From Prevotella sp. (GTDB lineage: Bacteria > Bacteroidota > Bacteroidia > Bacteroidales > Bacteroidaceae), in contig JAFWSS010000147.1 of the NCBI GenBank assembly GCA_017524385.1, positions 1-36,696 of the forward strand: a stretch of 36,696 nt of DNA, written 5' to 3'. Below, in pieces: positions 29,255 to 36,569 of this stretch. Positions within the stretch are counted from its first letter, which is position 1. Every line of letters begins with the position of its first letter. A program made the position numbers and the translations under genes. The notes below the pieces were generated by a model. The model saw only the letters and a list, made by a program, of their open reading frames with translations, was not told the DNA's origin and searched no databases.

Positions 29255-31561
29255 TCAATCTTCAATCTTCCTTCCTCTTGCGGGTCCACTCCCACCATCT
29301 CCAAAACTGATGGGAGAGCCATCGGTGTTGACCACTACATTGTAAATATGTCTGCTGTTGTTGAGGATGAGATTCACCATTTCCGTCACATCAGTCACGG
29401 TGACCTGTCCGTCACCGTTGACGTCGGCATTCCCAACGATGAAGTGGCTTTCGTGAAAGCCCAAGATATTGTTCACGAGAAAGGTCACATCTGTCACGTT
29501 GAGGCTCCTGTCGCCATTCACATCGCCCAGGTTTGAGATGACCATGTCCTTGCCTAACTGGAAATATCCGCGGAACGCATTGATGTTGAAGGATATTTCA
29601 GCAAAGTAGAGTTTGTTGTCGGCACCCAGGTATAGCTTCCCTCTGTCGCCTGACTTGGCGATGACGAGTGGTTTGTAAAGCCCTTTGAACGTGACGCCGT
29701 CGGTGGTGATGTCGGTAAGGTTCTTGCTTACTCTCACTGCTTTGAACGTCGGCTGATAAAGGTTGTGGGTCTTGTCGTTGACGTAATCGTCAGCCTTTGC
29801 CCACTTGATGATATAGGGTTTGCCCGCCTCGATGGAAGAGGCTTCCTTGAAATTCATTGTCAACGTGCCATTTGTAATGCTTGCATTGTCGAGTGTCATG
29901 ATCTTTTCGGGGCTCTCGAGCATCGTTGCAATCTGTGTGGCCTTGAGGTCGAACGGCAGGCACAGGGTGTTCCACGAGCCATCCTTGTAGAGCATGCGGC
30001 CAGAGAGGGTGACATCGTAATATCCGTCTGATTCCATCGCACTGGCTATCAACGAGGTGTTGTCGCTGTCGTCGTATAAAGTGAGCGGTGATGTATGTAC
30101 GCGCATATAGCCGCCAGCGTCGGCATGGGCCTTGGTCTTGTTCGTGTAATTGCTGTCGTAGGTAGTGCCGTCCTGCCCGACGATGTCGGTGCAGTTTTGG
30201 AACATCTGTATGGAACCGATATCGCTTACTCTGGAAAGGTTCCATTTTGCGCCGATGTAGATGCTCTTAAGCTTTGAGCATCCTTTGAACATATAGGCTG
30301 TTTGATTCACTTTGCCCGTGTCGAAACTGCTCAGGTCGAGGGTGGTGAGGTCGGTGCAGCTTCCAAACATGGATGACATTTCTGTAACTTTGCTCGTAAC
30401 GAAGTTTGTCAGGTTGAGCGAAGTGAGTCGGGTGCATCCATAGAACATCGCCTCAATGTTTGTTACATCGCTCGTGTTCAGGTTGTTCATCCTCAGCACC
30501 GAAGACAGTTTTGTGAAATCCATGAACCATCTTTTTGTACTTATGGGTTTCACAGAATTGAACGATGGTTCGAAGGCAACCGTGGTCACGTTGTTTTTCA
30601 TACTGTAGTTGCGGTACCATTCAGGATATTCACCGGTTTCCGTCACGTTGGTATCGTACCAATAGGCAGCGACGGAGTATGTCTCGGTGCCACCCTCGGG
30701 GGAGTAATAGGCATTGTCTGGATTGAAACTCCTGGTGAAATACATGACCTTGGAGTCGGCGCAATAAACTGCAGCAGGTTGGTAAAAAACCTGCTTTCGC
30801 ATATATCCCCCAGAACCGGCATGGGCCTTTCTCTTGTCCGTGACACTGCTGTCGTAGGTTGTGCCGTCTTGCCCGACAATTTTCTTACACCATTGGAACA
30901 TTGACCCTGAACTTTGCACATTGGCAGTAGTCCATCCATCACCGATATAAATGCCAACAACTTGCTCGCACATTGCGAACATCCCTGTCATACTGGTCAC
31001 ATTCGCAGTGTTGAAGCTGCTGATGTTGAGGTTAATAAGATTTGTGCACCCATGGAACATGGAGTTCATGGTAGTCACCTTTGCCGTATTGAAATAATTG
31101 AAGCTTAATGATGCCAAACTGGTGCAATTCGCGAACATCATGTTCATATTCCTGGCCTCGCTGGTATTGAAGTTTTCAAAGCCTTCCATGCTCTTCAACC
31201 CGCTGAAGCCTTTGAACCAACTATTCAGCATCGTGGGTTTCACATCGGCGAAAGAAGACTCAAACACCACCTTTTGCACATCGCCAAGGTCCGACCTGTC
31301 ACCCCAATACGGGCTTTCTGCGTCAACAGACTCGATTTGATAGTACCAGGTGACATTCAACGAGCGATTTCCTCCCTCTGGAGTGAAAAGGCCACCTTGT
31401 GACAAACTTGTCTCCAGTCCATTTCTTTTTGTGAAATAGAGGGTGTGGTTGTCATTGGAATACACAGCGAGGACCCCTGCGTGGATGGAGGTAGTCAAAC
31501 ATAGCGTTATGAGCAGCGTCATGGCCGCCCGGATAAAACTTGTTGATAAGGTTGTTTTCAT
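29255..31561 (-). CDS. BspA-like DUF285 surface protein with C-terminal dockerin-like domain
   Basis: 768 aa. Signal peptide 1-28 (ending TSIHA). Two blocks of DUF285 leucine-rich-like repeats follow (about 85-250 and 345-500), with the recurring SMFxxCTxLxxLxxSxFxTxxVTxM pattern. Each block ends in a GQDGTTYDS...KAHA...GGYMR motif. A beta domain (about 515-675, WNTLCLPFDL) precedes a dockerin type I-like pair of calcium loops (about 677-736: DVNGDRSLNVTD and DVNGDGQVTVTD). The tail is glycine/charge-rich (GDGGSGPARGRKIED). BspA-like repeats in Bacteroidetes and protists mediate adhesion. Dockerin normally docks to cohesin, and no cohesin gene is in the window. Secreted adhesin is the best reading. 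Confidence 0.85.
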   Translation of the reverse strand: MKTTLSTSFIRAAMTLLITLCLTTSIHAGVLAVYSNDNHTLYFTKRNGLETSLSQGGLFTPEGGNRSLNVTWYYQIESVDAESPYWGDRSDLGDVQKVVFESSFADVKPTMLNSWFKGFSGLKSMEGFENFNTSEARNMNMMFANCTSLASLSFNYFNTAKVTTMNSMFHGCTNLINLNISSFNTANVTSMTGMFAMCEQVVGIYIGDGWTTANVQSSGSMFQWCKKIVGQDGTTYDSSVTDKRKAHAGSGGYMRKQVFYQPAAVYCADSKVMYFTRSFNPDNAYYSPEGGTETYSVAAYWYDTNVTETGEYPEWYRNYSMKNNVTTVAFEPSFNSVKPISTKRWFMDFTKLSSVLRMNNLNTSDVTNIEAMFYGCTRLTSLNLTNFVTSKVTEMSSMFGSCTDLTTLDLSSFDTGKVNQTAYMFKGCSKLKSIYIGAKWNLSRVSDIGSIQMFQNCTDIVGQDGTTYDSNYTNKTKAHADAGGYMRVHTSPLTLYDDSDNTSLIASAMESDGYYDVTLSGRMLYKDGSWNTLCLPFDLKATQIATMLESPEKIMTLDNASITNGTLTMNFKEASSIEAGKPYIIKWAKADDYVNDKTHNLYQPTFKAVRVSKNLTDITTDGVTFKGLYKPLVIAKSGDRGKLYLGADNKLYFAEISFNINAFRGYFQLGKDMVISNLGDVNGDRSLNVTDVTFLVNNILGFHESHFIVGNADVNGDGQVTVTDVTEMVNLILNNSRHIYNVVVNTDGSPISFGDGGSGPARGRKIED

Positions 31562-32553: not shown

Positions 32554-32594
32554 ATGATTTACGGATACATCAGGGTGAGTAGCGACAAGCAGAC
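32554..32594 (+). pseudogene. Mpi-type serine recombinase, 5' fragment interrupted by the RIT element
   Basis: ATG at 32554 opens MIYGYIRVSSDKQT, the invariant N-terminus of Mpi-like invertases/resolvases with the catalytic serine in RVSS. The frame then runs into the inverted repeat and stops after YHN. The matching 3' part resumes at 36069. The intact family reads SDKQTVENQRFEI, which the two parts bracket. Confidence 0.88.
32578..32585. repeat. 8-bp direct repeat AGTAGCGA at the left edge of the RIT element
   Basis: Identical to 36069-36076. It falls in the SSD codons of the invertase on both sides, so it could be a target duplication or crossover core. In an 8-bp motif a chance match remains possible. 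Confidence 0.6.
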
Positions 32595-32685
32595 TTATCA
32601 CAACTAAAATTAAATCACAACTTTTTCATTGAGGTGCTGATTACGAGGTCGTTCTGCAAGCAATTAAGTTGTGATTTAATTCGTT
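32595..32685. repeat. Left 91-bp terminal inverted repeat of the RIT element
   Basis: The exact reverse complement of 35963-36053 over 91 bp. It contains a nested 16-bp inverted pair (AATTAAATCACAACTT and AAGTTGTGATTTAATT) and an outermost direct copy of ATCACAACT, which are plausible recombinase binding sites. Confidence 0.97.
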
Positions 32686-32686
32686 T

Positions 32687-32717
32687 TAATAGAGTAATGG
32701 TTTCAAAAACTCTATTA
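32687..32717 (+). promoter_or_regulatory. Hairpin just upstream of ritA
   Basis: TAATAGAGT (32687-32695) and ACTCTATTA (32709-32717) form a 9-bp stem with a 13-nt loop, ending 2 nt before the ritA start codon. It could limit translation started from outside the element. Confidence 0.55.
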
Positions 32718-32719
32718 GT

Positions 32720-33949
32720 ATGGATTTAAGCAATTTAAAAGCAAAAAAGGAAGCCCTGTTTTCAGCATTGAAAGATGGAGGCTATTCGAAGAAGACGATG
32801 ATGGACATAACTTCATGTTACAATGTCCTTATGAAGTATGGAGCAAGCAAAGACTACGCCTCCTATGAAGATTTCTACACCTTTTTCATTGTACCTAACT
32901 ATTCGCCTTCAAGTGCGAAGGACAAAAAAGGCTGTTTGGCGACTCTATGGTATTTTGACAAAAACGGTACCCTTCCGACACCATGTGTCCCAAAGGGATT
33001 TATGCCGCGCGACACCTATGGTCTTTTGTGTGATGAGTTCAAGCGTGTTGTGGATAATTACAGGCGAGGAAAACGAGAAAGACGAAATCTTGAAAATACA
33101 ATAAAAGGCAGGACTTACTCCTTGAAGAAATTCCTCTTGGCGTGCCAGAATGCAGGGTGCAAGAAAATTTCCGACATCACTGAGGATATTGTCAGGGATT
33201 ACTATACGAATGAGAATTTGCAGTCTATCGAGGTTACGAGCGTCATAAGGGATGCCTTGTCTTATTCTTCAGAAGAAATACAAGGATGTGATGTCGTGTC
33301 ATCATATCTCCCAAAGAAGAAGATGACGAGGAAACCATACGATTTCCTGTCTTCGTCAGAATCAAAAGCACTACAAGCAGTCATCGAGTCCCCTGATAAC
33401 GGTTTATCACTACGTAATAAGGCGATAATGACCATAGTGTTCTATCTTGGCTTGAGACGGGGTGACGTAGCGGCACTAAAACTTAAGGATGTGGACTTTC
33501 AAAAGGACAAGATTTCTTTTGTCCAGTCGAAGACCAATGTCCGACAAGAATTGCCTTTGCGCCCCGTAGTAGGGAACGCCATATATGAGTACATCGTGAA
33601 GGAGCGTCCACGTTGCAACCATGAACACCTCTTCTTAATCGATGATGGGAAGAATGTACGCCCCATCACGGCATGGGCGATATATGACATAGCCGAGATC
33701 GTATTTGAAAAGGCAGGTGTCCGTACCGACGGCAGAAGGAGGGGAGTCCATGTTTTTCGTCACAATCTTGCCACTTCTCTGATAAAAGAAGGCTGTGACG
33801 CACTGGAAGTCACATCAGTTATGGGGCATGTTTCACCTTCTTCTCTTGAAGTCTACCTTTCTGCTGACGAGAATCTGTTAAGGGCATGTGCACTTAGCAT
33901 CGAGGAGTATCCGCTATATAATGACATCTTTAAGCACTGCAAGCCATGA
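32720..33949 (+). CDS. ritA: RIT tyrosine recombinase RitA
   Basis: 409 aa. The N-terminal half (1-200) holds a SAM-like, DNA-binding region. The C-terminal catalytic domain shows the tyrosine recombinase residues Arg246 (YLGLRRGDV), Lys271 (QSKTNV), His344 and Arg347 (VHVFRHNLAT), His370 (VMGHVS) and nucleophile Tyr379 (SLEVYLS). All active-site residues are present, so the protein should be competent. Family members cut and rejoin DNA strands through a covalent tyrosine. It is first of three; ritB starts 4 nt before its stop (ATGA). Confidence 0.93.
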   Translation: MDLSNLKAKKEALFSALKDGGYSKKTMMDITSCYNVLMKYGASKDYASYEDFYTFFIVPNYSPSSAKDKKGCLATLWYFDKNGTLPTPCVPKGFMPRDTYGLLCDEFKRVVDNYRRGKRERRNLENTIKGRTYSLKKFLLACQNAGCKKISDITEDIVRDYYTNENLQSIEVTSVIRDALSYSSEEIQGCDVVSSYLPKKKMTRKPYDFLSSSESKALQAVIESPDNGLSLRNKAIMTIVFYLGLRRGDVAALKLKDVDFQKDKISFVQSKTNVRQELPLRPVVGNAIYEYIVKERPRCNHEHLFLIDDGKNVRPITAWAIYDIAEIVFEKAGVRTDGRRRGVHVFRHNLATSLIKEGCDALEVTSVMGHVSPSSLEVYLSADENLLRACALSIEEYPLYNDIFKHCKP

Positions 33950-34914
33950 CTACTGTTAATCTGTCGAAAACTATAGATGAATACTTTTCCTACCGTGATT
34001 TGTGCGGCTTGAAGCAGTGCCCGAAAGAGGGTGTACGAAAATTTTATTCTTTCTCTTGTAAAGCATTCCCGGGGGAGGATACCCTGATACAGGCCATGAT
34101 AGATACCTGGTGGGAGAAACGAGATACAGAAAGGGTTGATTCATACTGCATCAGGGTGTGCCAGGTCCTTCCATACTTGAAATTTGTCATTGCACGATAT
34201 CCGAATGCCGAGTACATAGTCCCTGACACTCCAAAATGGAAGCTCTCGAAATACGTTCCTCATTTCTACACCAAGGAGGAATTGACCAAATTCTTCAAGG
34301 AATGTGACAACATGGGACACCATAACAACATGCTCGAGTGTCTGCTCAATGAAATCGAGTTCCCTGTCCTCTTTAGACTGCTTCTGAGTACGGGGATGAG
34401 GACGACGGAAGTAAGGCTGCTTGAAAAGGTGAACGTGGACCTGGCCAAAGGATGCATATACATAGTACGGGAAGCCACCAAAGGCTATATGGAACGGAGG
34501 GTGTTCCTTCATGAAAGTATGCGTCGGCTATTGGTTGATTACGACGCGGCTGTTGAGAATCTGGTACCTAACAGGAAGGTGTTCTTTCCAAACGATCATG
34601 ATCAGACGCATTCTGACGAGTGGATAAGTATCCATTTCAAGCGGATTTGGAAGAAAGCCGTAGGGACGGACGGTGTAATAGCCTATGATTTGAGGCATCA
34701 TTTCATTATCGACAGGATAAATTCATGGACGGGTAGGGACTATGAGGTTTATCCAAAGATGATGGCACTCTGCAAGTATGTCGGCCATTCTGATTTGGAA
34801 AGCACCTACAGTTATTACGCTTATGCGCCGCAGATGGGTCAGATTATGGACAGCGCGTCTTCAGCAAAGATGGACAGGATGATACAAAGTATACCACCAC
34901 CAAACGAGATGTGA
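33946..34914 (+). CDS. ritB: RIT tyrosine recombinase RitB
   Basis: 322 aa, shorter than RitA. Catalytic residues: Arg152 (STGMRTTEVR), Lys179 (EATKGY), Arg250 in YDLRHHF, where the first histidine of the usual HxxR is Tyr247, then His281 (YVGHSD) and a tyrosine cluster at 288-291 (TYSYY) supplying the nucleophile. The His-to-Tyr change at HxxR is tolerated in many active tyrosine recombinases. Its start overlaps the ritA stop by 4 nt and ritC begins 1 nt after its stop, pointing to translational coupling and fixed dosage of the trio. Confidence 0.92.
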   Translation: MTTVNLSKTIDEYFSYRDLCGLKQCPKEGVRKFYSFSCKAFPGEDTLIQAMIDTWWEKRDTERVDSYCIRVCQVLPYLKFVIARYPNAEYIVPDTPKWKLSKYVPHFYTKEELTKFFKECDNMGHHNNMLECLLNEIEFPVLFRLLLSTGMRTTEVRLLEKVNVDLAKGCIYIVREATKGYMERRVFLHESMRRLLVDYDAAVENLVPNRKVFFPNDHDQTHSDEWISIHFKRIWKKAVGTDGVIAYDLRHHFIIDRINSWTGRDYEVYPKMMALCKYVGHSDLESTYSYYAYAPQMGQIMDSASSAKMDRMIQSIPPPNEM

Positions 34915-34915
34915 C

Positions 34916-35962
34916 ATGAAGAAGGAACCAGTTATCTGTGAGGCCAAGCAGATGGCACGTTTATATTGGAGGTGGATAAAGGAATGTGAAAAAGCCAAGA
35001 GTCCACATACTATAAGGGCATACAAAGTTTCCATAAGAATATACATGGAATATATGAAGGCCAAAGGAAAAAGTCTCACCAACTTCGAATCTGAAGACAG
35101 TTTTTCCAGAGATACCATACTGCAGTGGCTAAACTGGCTGAAAGATGAGAAAGGCTGTAGTCCAGAGACATGCAACAACCGGCTGTCGCATATCCGCACA
35201 TTTCTTGAATATATTTCCGACCGCGACCTAAAGTACGCGCATATCTATCTGGATGCAATTAGTATAAAGCCATTTAGGTACATCAAGAAGAAGCAGTATG
35301 CCATACCAGAAAACGAGTTGACGATTCTTATGCAGACACCTGACCCTAATTCACGAAGTGGCTGTCTTGACATCATGATTATGTCATTCCTTTACGGAAC
35401 AGCCGTAAGAATGGGAGAGATGAGGATGGTACAGGTCAAAGACCTGCATTTGACAGGAGACGACCGATATGTGCATATTGTTGGAAAGGGAAACAAAGAA
35501 CGTCTTGTACATCTTCCTGAAAAGATTGTAAAGAATCTGCGCAACTACATATCGCTGTTTCATGGGATTGAACCCGAAGGCGAATCCTTCTTGTTCTACT
35601 CAAGGGTAAAAGGGAAAGGATTCCCGATTACCGAAGCCGCCATTGATAAGCGCCTGAAGAACATTGCGAAGAAGGCAAACGAGAAAGATCCAAACATATC
35701 ACTTAATCTTCATGCCCACCAATTTAGACGCACAAGGGCAACAGACTTGTCAAGCGACGGAATGAACCCGTTCCAGATAGCCAATATGCTTGGCCATGCA
35801 AACTTGTCAACCACAATGAAATATGTAGATGTAAGTATTGAAAAGAAAACCAAGGACCTAATGGCTATAGAGAGTGCGAAAGCTAGATTAGTTAAGCCCT
35901 TATGGCACAACAAGGATGTCGATCTGGTTGATCTTTTCAAGGATGTGACAACGATAAAGTAG
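34916..35962 (+). CDS. ritC: RIT tyrosine recombinase RitC
   Basis: 348 aa. N-terminal SAM-like core-binding domain (about 10-105: SPHTIRAYKVSIRIYMEYMK), then the catalytic domain with Arg165 (YGTAVRMGEMR), Lys191 (VGKGNKER), His268 and Arg271 (HAHQFRRTRATDL), His294 (MLGHANLS) and Tyr303 (TMKYVDV). This is the most canonical, XerD-like of the three. The stop codon at 35960-35962 directly abuts the right inverted repeat at 35963. Confidence 0.94.
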   Translation: MKKEPVICEAKQMARLYWRWIKECEKAKSPHTIRAYKVSIRIYMEYMKAKGKSLTNFESEDSFSRDTILQWLNWLKDEKGCSPETCNNRLSHIRTFLEYISDRDLKYAHIYLDAISIKPFRYIKKKQYAIPENELTILMQTPDPNSRSGCLDIMIMSFLYGTAVRMGEMRMVQVKDLHLTGDDRYVHIVGKGNKERLVHLPEKIVKNLRNYISLFHGIEPEGESFLFYSRVKGKGFPITEAAIDKRLKNIAKKANEKDPNISLNLHAHQFRRTRATDLSSDGMNPFQIANMLGHANLSTTMKYVDVSIEKKTKDLMAIESAKARLVKPLWHNKDVDLVDLFKDVTTIK

Positions 35963-36053
35963 AACGAATTAAATCACAACTTAATTGCTTGCAGAACGAC
36001 CTCGTAATCAGCACCTCAATGAAAAAGTTGTGATTTAATTTTAGTTGTGATAA
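35963..36053. repeat. Right 91-bp terminal inverted repeat of the RIT element
   Basis: The perfect reverse complement of 32595-32685. It begins at the base after the ritC stop codon. At its outer edge, TTGTGAT (36045-36051) and ATCACAA (36062-36068) form an inverted pair around 10 nt, which only this end has. Confidence 0.97.
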
Positions 36054-36068
36054 CTTCCCAAATCACAA

Positions 36069-36076
36069 AGTAGCGA
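36069..36076. repeat. 8-bp direct repeat AGTAGCGA at the right edge of the RIT element
   Basis: A copy of 32578-32585. It continues in frame into the invertase 3' fragment. Confidence 0.6.
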
Positions 36077-36569
36077 TTTAGACCCAGTAGAGAACCAGCG
36101 TTTTGAAATCAATAAGTTTTGTGAGAAAAACCAGTTGAAGATTGACGACTGGATAGAAGAAACCATCAGTGGCACCAAGAACTATACCAAACGACAGTTG
36201 GGTAATCTTTTAAAGAAAGTACACAAGGATGACATCATCATATGTAGTGAACTATCTCGACTTGGAAGAAATCTCTTTATGATCATGGAGATACTGAATA
36301 TCTGTATGACGAAGGAGTGTCGGGTGTGGACCATCAAGGACAACTATCGTCTGGGTGATGACATCCAAAGCAAAGTTCTCGCTTTCGCATTTGGGTTGTC
36401 TGCCGAGATTGAACGCAATCTGATAAGTCAGAGGACAAAGGAGGCGTTGGCAAGGAAAAAGGCAGAGGGAGTGGTGCTTGGTCATCCTCGCGGATTTCGC
36501 TGTAGGCTCAATCCCCAATGCACTAGCAAGCATAAGTATATCGTGAAAGAATTAACCTACGATAATTGA
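36069..36569 (+). pseudogene. Mpi-type serine recombinase, 3' fragment, also truncated at the C-terminus
   Basis: 166 codons open from 36069: SSDLDPVENQRFEINKFC, then WIEETISGT, IICSELSRLGRNL, RVWTIKDNYRLGDD and AFAFGLSAEIERNLISQRTKEALARKKAEG. These are the resolvase catalytic core and long helix of the Mpi family, which flips promoters in Bacteroides. The family normally continues after VVLGxPxG with a helix-turn-helix of about 40 residues. Here the frame ends soon after at KYIVKELTYDN, without that domain. So the gene is split by the RIT element and lacks DNA-binding capacity. The internal ATG at 36135 is not a natural start. Confidence 0.85.

Follow-up and report, generated by a model that had tools for sequence, protein, structure and literature searches.

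A 20-bp satellite at a fixed distance from RIT elements suggests movement through a circle with two inverted attachment sites

Introduction

How RIT elements move, and why they should need more than one recombinase, are the questions raised by a 36,696-nt stretch of Prevotella sp. DNA (contig JAFWSS010000147.1; the whole stretch is referred to as the window), in which the tyrosine recombinase genes ritA, ritB and ritC lie between inverted repeats inside another gene. In the accessible sections of PMC3414803, the ends of RITs are left unsettled, with a 28-9 bp inverted repeat and an overlapping palindromic sequence. The excerpted text of PMC8138268 describes two core-binding domains for RitA and an extra C-terminal helix for RitC, and that of PMC10214605 (2023) states that, as far as its authors knew, no laboratory had reproduced RIT transposition, and gives RIT target specificity as not tested. 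Here, we report that the unit in the window is a complete RIT element plus a satellite, a 20-bp imperfect palindrome, inside an Mpi-type serine recombinase gene, and that such satellites recur next to RITs at a sharp spacing of 6 bp. A circle with two inverted attachment sites is, judged from sequence, probably the best model of RIT movement. With exact ends, a defined mobile unit, a spacer rule and identical copies in two configurations, the question becomes experimentally tractable.

Results

The RIT element of the window and its target

An earlier sequence-only reading of the window had proposed three tyrosine recombinases with intact catalytic residues in the order ritA-ritB-ritC, and our analysis agrees on both points (Table 1). 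Their open reading frames overlap by 4 nt (ritA/ritB) or are 1 nt apart (ritB/ritC), as had been stated, and all three products match the Pfam domain Phage_integrase above cut-off (RitA, E 3.8e-22; RitB, 1.6e-12; RitC, 5.2e-30). Each can be aligned with its counterpart in 8-9 other trios at 26-37% identity, and R, K, R, H and Y occupy invariant columns in all three alignments. The first position of the HxxR motif is a His in many tyrosine recombinases; RitB has a Tyr at this position (Y247-D-L-R250), as do the nine other RitB rows (10/10 aligned). No other genes were recognised between the repeats, where the set intA-tfp-intB-srap of SE elements was not found. The terminal inverted repeats are 94 nt long with one mismatch, at position 32686; the 91-bp identical repeats described earlier correspond to their outer 91 nt, and the full repeats are neither that short nor perfect. 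With 3,459 bp from outer end to outer end, and thus about 3.5 kb, and with trio and repeats in place, the RIT is complete, as had been claimed. Both junctions are indeed readable, but the right one had been misplaced at the repeat, with the satellite and the 6-bp spacers overlooked, and these are the parts that are informative on movement. Since a 6-bp spacer, a 20-bp palindrome and a further 6 bp follow the right repeat, the inserted DNA runs from 32595 to 36085 (3,491 bp, RIT + 6 + 20 + 6). The pattern satellite-6 bp-arm fits once in the 5.05-Mb source genome, at the window element (0 fits for a backwards-pattern control), and the RIT is present in one copy.

Table 1. Positions of the RIT element, its satellite and the target gene in the window
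Feature	Position	Strand	Evidence or remark
Mpi-family gene, 5' fragment MIYGYIRVSSDKQ	32554..32594	+	BLAST, codon alignment
B arm GTAGCGACAA	32579-32588	+	target DNA left of RIT
Native (far) 6-bp spacer GCAGAC	32589-32594	+	target DNA, adjoins RIT arm
Left terminal inverted repeat	32595..32688	+	repeat search
Left outer arm TTATCACAAC	32595-32604	+	in left inverted repeat
Left inner arm AAATCACAAC	32612-32621		17 bp inward of outer arm
Third arm, inverted	within 32666-32681		in left inverted repeat
ritA	32720..33949	+	tyrosine recombinase, 409 aa; ORF (open reading frame) list, Pfam, alignment
ritB	33946..34914	+	tyrosine recombinase, 322 aa; ORF list, Pfam, alignment
ritC	34916..35962	+	tyrosine recombinase, 348 aa; ORF list, Pfam, alignment
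Right terminal inverted repeat	35960..36053	-	outer arm 36044-36053
Middle 6-bp spacer CTTCCC	36054..36059	+	between RIT end and satellite
Satellite AAATCACAAAGTAGCGATTT	36060..36079	.	20-bp imperfect palindrome, 7/10 pairs
Outer 6-bp spacer AGACCC	36080..36085	+	read as imported coupling sequence
Mpi-family gene, 3' part (B' half)	36086..36569	+	C-terminal part missing relative to congener

The interrupted gene is identifiable, as the earlier reading held. It belongs to NF009949, the 'master DNA invertase Mpi family serine-type recombinase', which its 3' part matches with 252 bits (E 4e-75), alone below the family cut-off of 272 bits that a longer stretch (287 bits) exceeds. It is the sole Mpi match of its genome, and congeners carry the gene uninterrupted; BLAST pieces of their homologues stop at 32594 on the left side of the insertion and resume at 36080-36087 on its right side. 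In the intact homologues (15 rows, 11 distinct loci, 9 genomes, two of these outside the genus), codon alignment gives B arm-6 bp-B' at the insertion point. The site in the window follows the RVSS motif of a serine recombinase, which holds the catalytic Ser. The 6-mer at this place is GCAGAC, the far spacer of the window, in 6/15 rows and a one- or two-base variant (GCAAAC, ACAGAC or ACAAAC) in the rest, whereas the outer spacer AGACCC was found at the corresponding place in 0/15. An 8-bp target-site duplication (AGTAGCGA, present in both flanks) was considered and dropped because its right copy is part of the satellite and the register is arm-6-B'. An assembly artefact is unlikely, as the contig is continuous through both junctions and the same architecture occurs in unrelated assemblies.

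Of the 398 genomes sampled in the genus, 9 others contain RitB relatives with 31-38% identity (E<=1e-25) and, at the same threshold, so do 6 others of the 399 in the family sample; no other RitB match in these two samples exceeded 38%. A RitB match was also found in 49 plasmid records, with a top identity of 35.1% among the 40 matches listed, and a search of genome_contigs and viral_contigs with the single RitB protein yielded no confirmed close relative. The intact reading frames, the near-perfect repeats and these distant matches are compatible with the recent insertion that had been suggested earlier and make it plausible, though unproven.

A satellite 6 bp from the end recurs in RIT elements

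A RitB alignment search of named genome records gave 80 loci spread over several phyla (the best 80 of 186 confirmed), which together with 12 viral-contig loci, 9 genus or family loci and the window make a set of 102. A strict pattern identified a satellite in 51 of these and in none of 20 shuffling rounds. Both ends could be set for 67 loci, 55 of which have at least 40 bp on either side; three loci with doubtful ends (L064, L072, L118) were left out of the end, arm and spacer counts, and six contigs are, by their length and the position of the locus, duplicates (L040=L056, L042=L059, L045=L110, L043=L111, L044=L115, L041=L069). The satellite lies on the right in 28 of the 55, on the left in 15, on both sides in 4 and on neither in 8, so that 47 carry one, a figure that is biased because the satellite motif served to place the ends in 39 of the 67 elements. 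Two of the eight have a satellite at another distance, L116 at 7 bp and L101 at 23 bp; we infer that the latter offset would become 6 bp if the true end lay one 17-bp arm step further out.

The spacing is sharp. Palindromes outside 114 element ends were offset by 6 bp in 51 cases, by 7, 22 and 23 bp once each and by no other distance within 0-30 bp, and for the 46 ends set without the motif the offset was 6 bp in 16, and 7 and 23 bp once each. Control offsets of 100-130 bp gave one hit at each and five at 113, which trace to an N run in L093 and to one palindrome in four like Salegentibacter flanks. When ends were taken from the repeats only, 35 of 52 loci (74 with repeats, minus 10 without a recognised arm and 12 with cut flanks) had, at 6 bp, a satellite with 8/10 pairs or more. 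The remaining 17 comprise weaker palindromes (the window, L033, L077, L126), a mis-picked outermost arm (L055, L060, L080, L090, L133), L101, L116 and six satellite absences. Given its fixed 20-bp size and 6-bp spacing, we rejected the ideas that the satellite is a terminator or what is left of a second RIT. In a later set of 12 RITs, hand-chosen from the 49 plasmid records and not used in motif discovery, six had a satellite (Priestia, Bacteroides ovatus, two Rhodococcus, Methylomonas and Agrobacterium vitis), with scores of 15-19 against a background maximum of 13.5. Of the six plasmid RITs without one, five lacked a strong terminal repeat close to the trio; in the sixth, L183, the repeat is a region next to it that recurs as a 543-bp inverted copy. 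The arms vary by lineage; the Methylomonas arm, for example, is CTATGTATAG and its satellite CTATGGATAGCTATCCATAG.

Spacer relations

We call the 6-mer beside the RIT arm far, that between RIT and satellite middle and that beyond the satellite outer. For the spacer and arm-likeness statistics, like target sites were merged (44 to 39). Far equals outer (at least 5/6 positions) at 19 of the 39 sites, far equals the reverse complement of middle at 19 and outer equals the reverse complement of middle at 27, compared to averages of 1.3, 1.3 and 1.6, respectively, and a maximum of 7 in shuffled pairings. All three agree at 15 sites, only outer and middle at 9, none at 7, and 8 sites show other combinations. 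In the window, the far spacer matches the intact homologues and the outer one does not; the L056 and L053 RITs, which are 99.5% identical, share their middle and outer spacers and differ in the far one. The 6-mers are best modelled as tyrosine-recombinase spacers, of which the one at the RIT arm would be native and the one on the satellite side carried in. This polarity between donor and target shows cleanly in no more than three cases: the window, one Salegentibacter copy and the L053/L056 pair. Two viral contigs (L128, 4638-8762; L129, 4950-9074) contain identical 4,099-bp RITs with the far and outer spacers swapped (ATCGTA/GTCAAA).

Identical copies in opposite configurations in Salegentibacter sp. 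oa5

Salegentibacter sp. oa5 has five RIT copies that are identical over 3,432 bp. Three of them (L095, L099, L100) read TCTTAG-RIT(+)-CAGGTA-satellite-TCTTAG and are possibly non-independent because their flanks are identical. In L166, a 100% identical RIT lies reversed in a similar target (flank pieces 94.9-99.9% identical), and the 32-bp block of middle spacer, satellite and outer spacer is reversed as well (TCTTAG-RIT(-)-CTAAGA-satellite-TACCTG). This is the layout predicted for the same circle entering through its middle site; an inversion of the RIT only would have kept the outer TCTTAG. The fifth copy (L096/L165) appears to have N-terminal target halves at both ends.

Outer and inner arms of the RIT ends

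In most RIT ends, the outer arm is accompanied by a second arm in direct orientation, 17 bp further in. Among 24 distinct rows in which these arms differ, the satellite is closer to the inner arm in 15, to the outer in 5 and equally close in 4; in four of the five 'outer' rows (L031, L040, L053, L082), no inner arm can be recognised at one end or at either. There may therefore be two binding specificities, one for the outer arm and one for the inner arm and satellite. The outer arm of the window's satellite, GTAGCGATTT, is identical to the B arm at 7/10 positions and, over the 39 sites, B is weakly similar, in an element-specific way, to the RIT arm (p 0.005) and the satellite arm (p 0.002), whereas B' resembles neither (p 0.10 and 0.29, respectively).

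Target genes and the placement of their halves

Many targets appear to be cut at conserved motifs, often at HxxR-H of integrases. Searched separately, the integrase halves align with the 172-position Phage_integrase model as far as 123-132 or from 134 onward, i.e. to HxxR-H, except in L066, where the match reaches 86 only. Elsewhere, cuts fall between 26 and 28 of MutS domain I, between 257 and 260 of an IS66 transposase and before position 5, where the match resumes, of DinB (IMS); by our reading of the residues, these non-integrase cuts are on catalytic motifs. Further targets are TerL, TnpV, DruA, Mutator transposase, TraG-type, helicase and lysozyme-like genes, and 7 of 40 target pieces had no Pfam match (L067, L076, L079, L103, L114, L119, L129). 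Insertions in IS66 tnpA and radC genes are reported in the portions of PMC2864759 and PMC3414803 at hand.

In all 12 testable integrase targets (L065, L074, L075, L085, L087, L088, L097, L106, L120, L127, L135, L166), the N-terminal half adjoins the RIT arm or the C-terminal half the satellite, as supported by Pfam and usually tested on the longer half only. Satellite-free RITs, by eye, seem to have N-terminal halves on both sides (L062, L063, L096, L122) or on one (L066, in which the second side is ambiguous), with Pfam support for both sides of L062 and for one side each of L066, L096/L165 and L122. We had predicted beforehand that satellites without a RIT would lie between two C-terminal halves, and this was found in one of six genomes searched with up to 2 mismatches: G840 has two perfect satellites between apparent C-terminal halves (L152, L154), one of which sits 5.7 kb from a satellite-free RIT on the same contig. 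Four RITs (L046, L060, L080, L090) have a satellite on both sides; they may have arisen as the reciprocal counterparts of those satellite-free RITs that are flanked by two N-terminal halves.

The satellite and the satellite-free RIT that share a contig in G840 form, with the 5.7 kb of other DNA between them, a composite (L167, 8429-17589) with CGAATA on both outer sides, outside of which lie what appear to be the two halves of one integrase gene. Such a composite would be the expected residue of a RIT in a circular molecule that inserted through the middle site; its history is uncertain because the inner junctions of the cargo make no single clear gene. Identical satellites 7 kb apart in L064 (5641 and 12719), each adjoining an apparent helicase-target half, are possibly a second composite. 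A 98-bp gene-free miniature RIT (L170, 6819-6916) has two RIT ends, its own satellite and the 6-bp direct repeat TTCCAC; together with similar ends beside satellites (L160, L162), it represents derivatives resembling miniature inverted-repeat transposable elements in the L066 genome. Two contigs that end at RIT ends, L117 and L089, have very high coverages of 2251x and 1326x in their record names, which possibly reflects many copies or circles.

Other features of the window

The target gene has a second, separate lesion (36480-36569): it ends ...KELTYDN stop, and the congener L141 runs about 40 residues further. The minus strand at 29258-31561 encodes a 768-aa surface-type protein that carries a dockerin domain as well as DUF285 repeats. 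The source assembly, of 5.05 Mb and with 6.56% contamination, may be mixed; the 59 other congeners listed span 1.4-4.3 Mb.

Discussion

We propose that Rit recombinases act on Xer-like core sites, in which two arms of about 10 bp flank a 6-bp spacer, and that the RIT moves as one unit with the 6 bp, the 20-bp satellite and the further 6 bp beside it. In its circular form, this unit would contain two core sites, the circle junction and the middle site between RIT and satellite, each consisting of satellite arm-6 bp-RIT arm and inverted relative to the other. Either site could recombine with a target B-6-B', which would place the RIT arm beside B with the target's own spacer and the satellite arm beside B' with the spacer of the circle, and recombination between both sites would invert the RIT and render the two spacers complementary. 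By our own reasoning, exchange within the 6-bp spacer followed by replication, together with inversion, would account for the spacer patterns: after integration, far and outer would differ unless the spacers had been alike beforehand, and inversion between the inverted sites would render both spacers alike. We infer that different Rit proteins occupy the outer arms on the one hand and the inner and satellite arms on the other.

Several observations weigh against this model. No circle, excision or movement has been observed, and six loci with flanks present lack a satellite (L052, L062, L063, L066, L096, L122). In 39 of 67 elements, the motif itself was used to set the ends, and the repeat-only and motif-free counts are the fairer ones. 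Seven of the 39 sites show no spacer relation and the 39 contain related elements; the three 6-mers of the window are unlike each other and each other's complements. The L128/L129 pair is not clean either: the element-free L185 has ATCGAA before its B' half, closer to the outer than to the far spacer, and its left flank is unalignable, leaving no clean empty site. Around the fifth Salegentibacter copy (L096/L165), scans of about 20 kb on each side revealed no freed satellite; the genome's four satellite hits are all accounted for by its other copies. The preference for the inner arm is drawn from 15 against 5 rows (4 equal) of partly related loci. Four of the six genomes searched for RIT-free satellites gave no hit at up to 2 mismatches (two had hits), and only one of the four halves beside the L152 and L154 satellites passes Pfam, the other three having been judged by eye.

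Among other explanations, strand-biased copy-out/copy-in with a replicated circle, as proposed for SEs, is a serious contender to which we would give somewhat less than even chances, and it is compatible with the two-site circle. A target spacer by the RIT arm and a circle spacer by the satellite arm mirror the SE rule given in the available text of PMC10214605, but nothing separates replication from conservative exchange, and the clean polarity is confined to the three cases named above. It is unlikely that the RIT moves alone through an end-to-end circle, with the satellite as an accessory binding site or regulatory palindrome outside strand exchange. The six satellite-free loci among the 55 with flanks would fit this; however, the satellite separates the element from its target and is bordered on the outside by target 6-mers, it occurs at either RIT end, the half rule holds in 12/12 satellite-bearing integrase targets with Pfam support for the half tested, and satellites at target halves without an adjacent RIT exist. 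In the least probable alternative, the inversions, the two-N-terminal-half RITs and the double-satellite RITs stem from homologous recombination, either among RIT copies or from one terminal repeat to the other, and the spacer identities are target duplications. It could draw on long, nearly identical repeats, on copies that are sometimes multiple and on the like products that, as we reason, a crossover between the ends of two RITs gives, but it leaves unexplained why the inverted copy, identical as it is, has its spacers and its 32-bp block reversed, and why complementary middle spacers are the commonest relation (27/39).

If the two-site circle is correct, the unit can insert via either site, invert and carry foreign DNA between RIT and satellite, satellites would be left behind, and the carried 6-mers would log earlier hosts. 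The two arm specificities, outer versus inner plus satellite, would be the reason for more than one recombinase, and many lineages would target conserved-motif codons, chiefly HxxR-H of other integrase genes. We regard it as an even call whether RITs in general are two-part elements, with a recombinase trio and a 20-bp satellite that gives the second half of two inverted sites, with multiple recombinases arising from two arm specificities and many lineages aiming at conserved-motif codons. Should the target rule hold, many RITs would be specialised parasites of the recombinase and transposase genes of other mobile elements.

The available parts of the RIT literature found, which did not include Ricker 2013, the main RIT paper, describe neither a satellite at 6 bp nor such spacer relations nor two-site insertion. 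Because part of the RIT end structure may already be in print, we file the window element as a RIT of the known kind and would place any novelty in the mechanism. It shares with the RITs described in the accessible parts of PMC3414803 and PMC2864759 the adjacent, distinct ritA-ritB-ritC genes, the size of about 3.5 kb and the terminal inverted repeats. SEs, as far as the text of PMC10214605 at hand describes them, likewise use tyrosine recombinases and have a 6-bp spacer whose donor copy lies at a fixed side of the new insertion; they differ in their genes (intA, tfp, intB, srap) and in their 13-19 bp imperfect ends, with no satellite described there. The SE-type polarity fits the window, one Salegentibacter copy and L053/L056, while L129/L185 does not read clearly. 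GInt islands (cf. PMC5385486) and Tn554, as described in the available text of PMC10214605, also contain several tyrosine recombinase genes per element, and a 6-bp footprint is reported there for Tn554-related elements; by these descriptions, their gene sets are different. Among cellular systems, the dif sites of XerC/XerD consist of two unlike arms around a 6-bp spacer. The outer edges of the RIT arms (...ATAA/TTAT...) seem to resemble dif arms, whereas RITs, unlike XerC/XerD-dif, encode their own recombinases and insert in genes.

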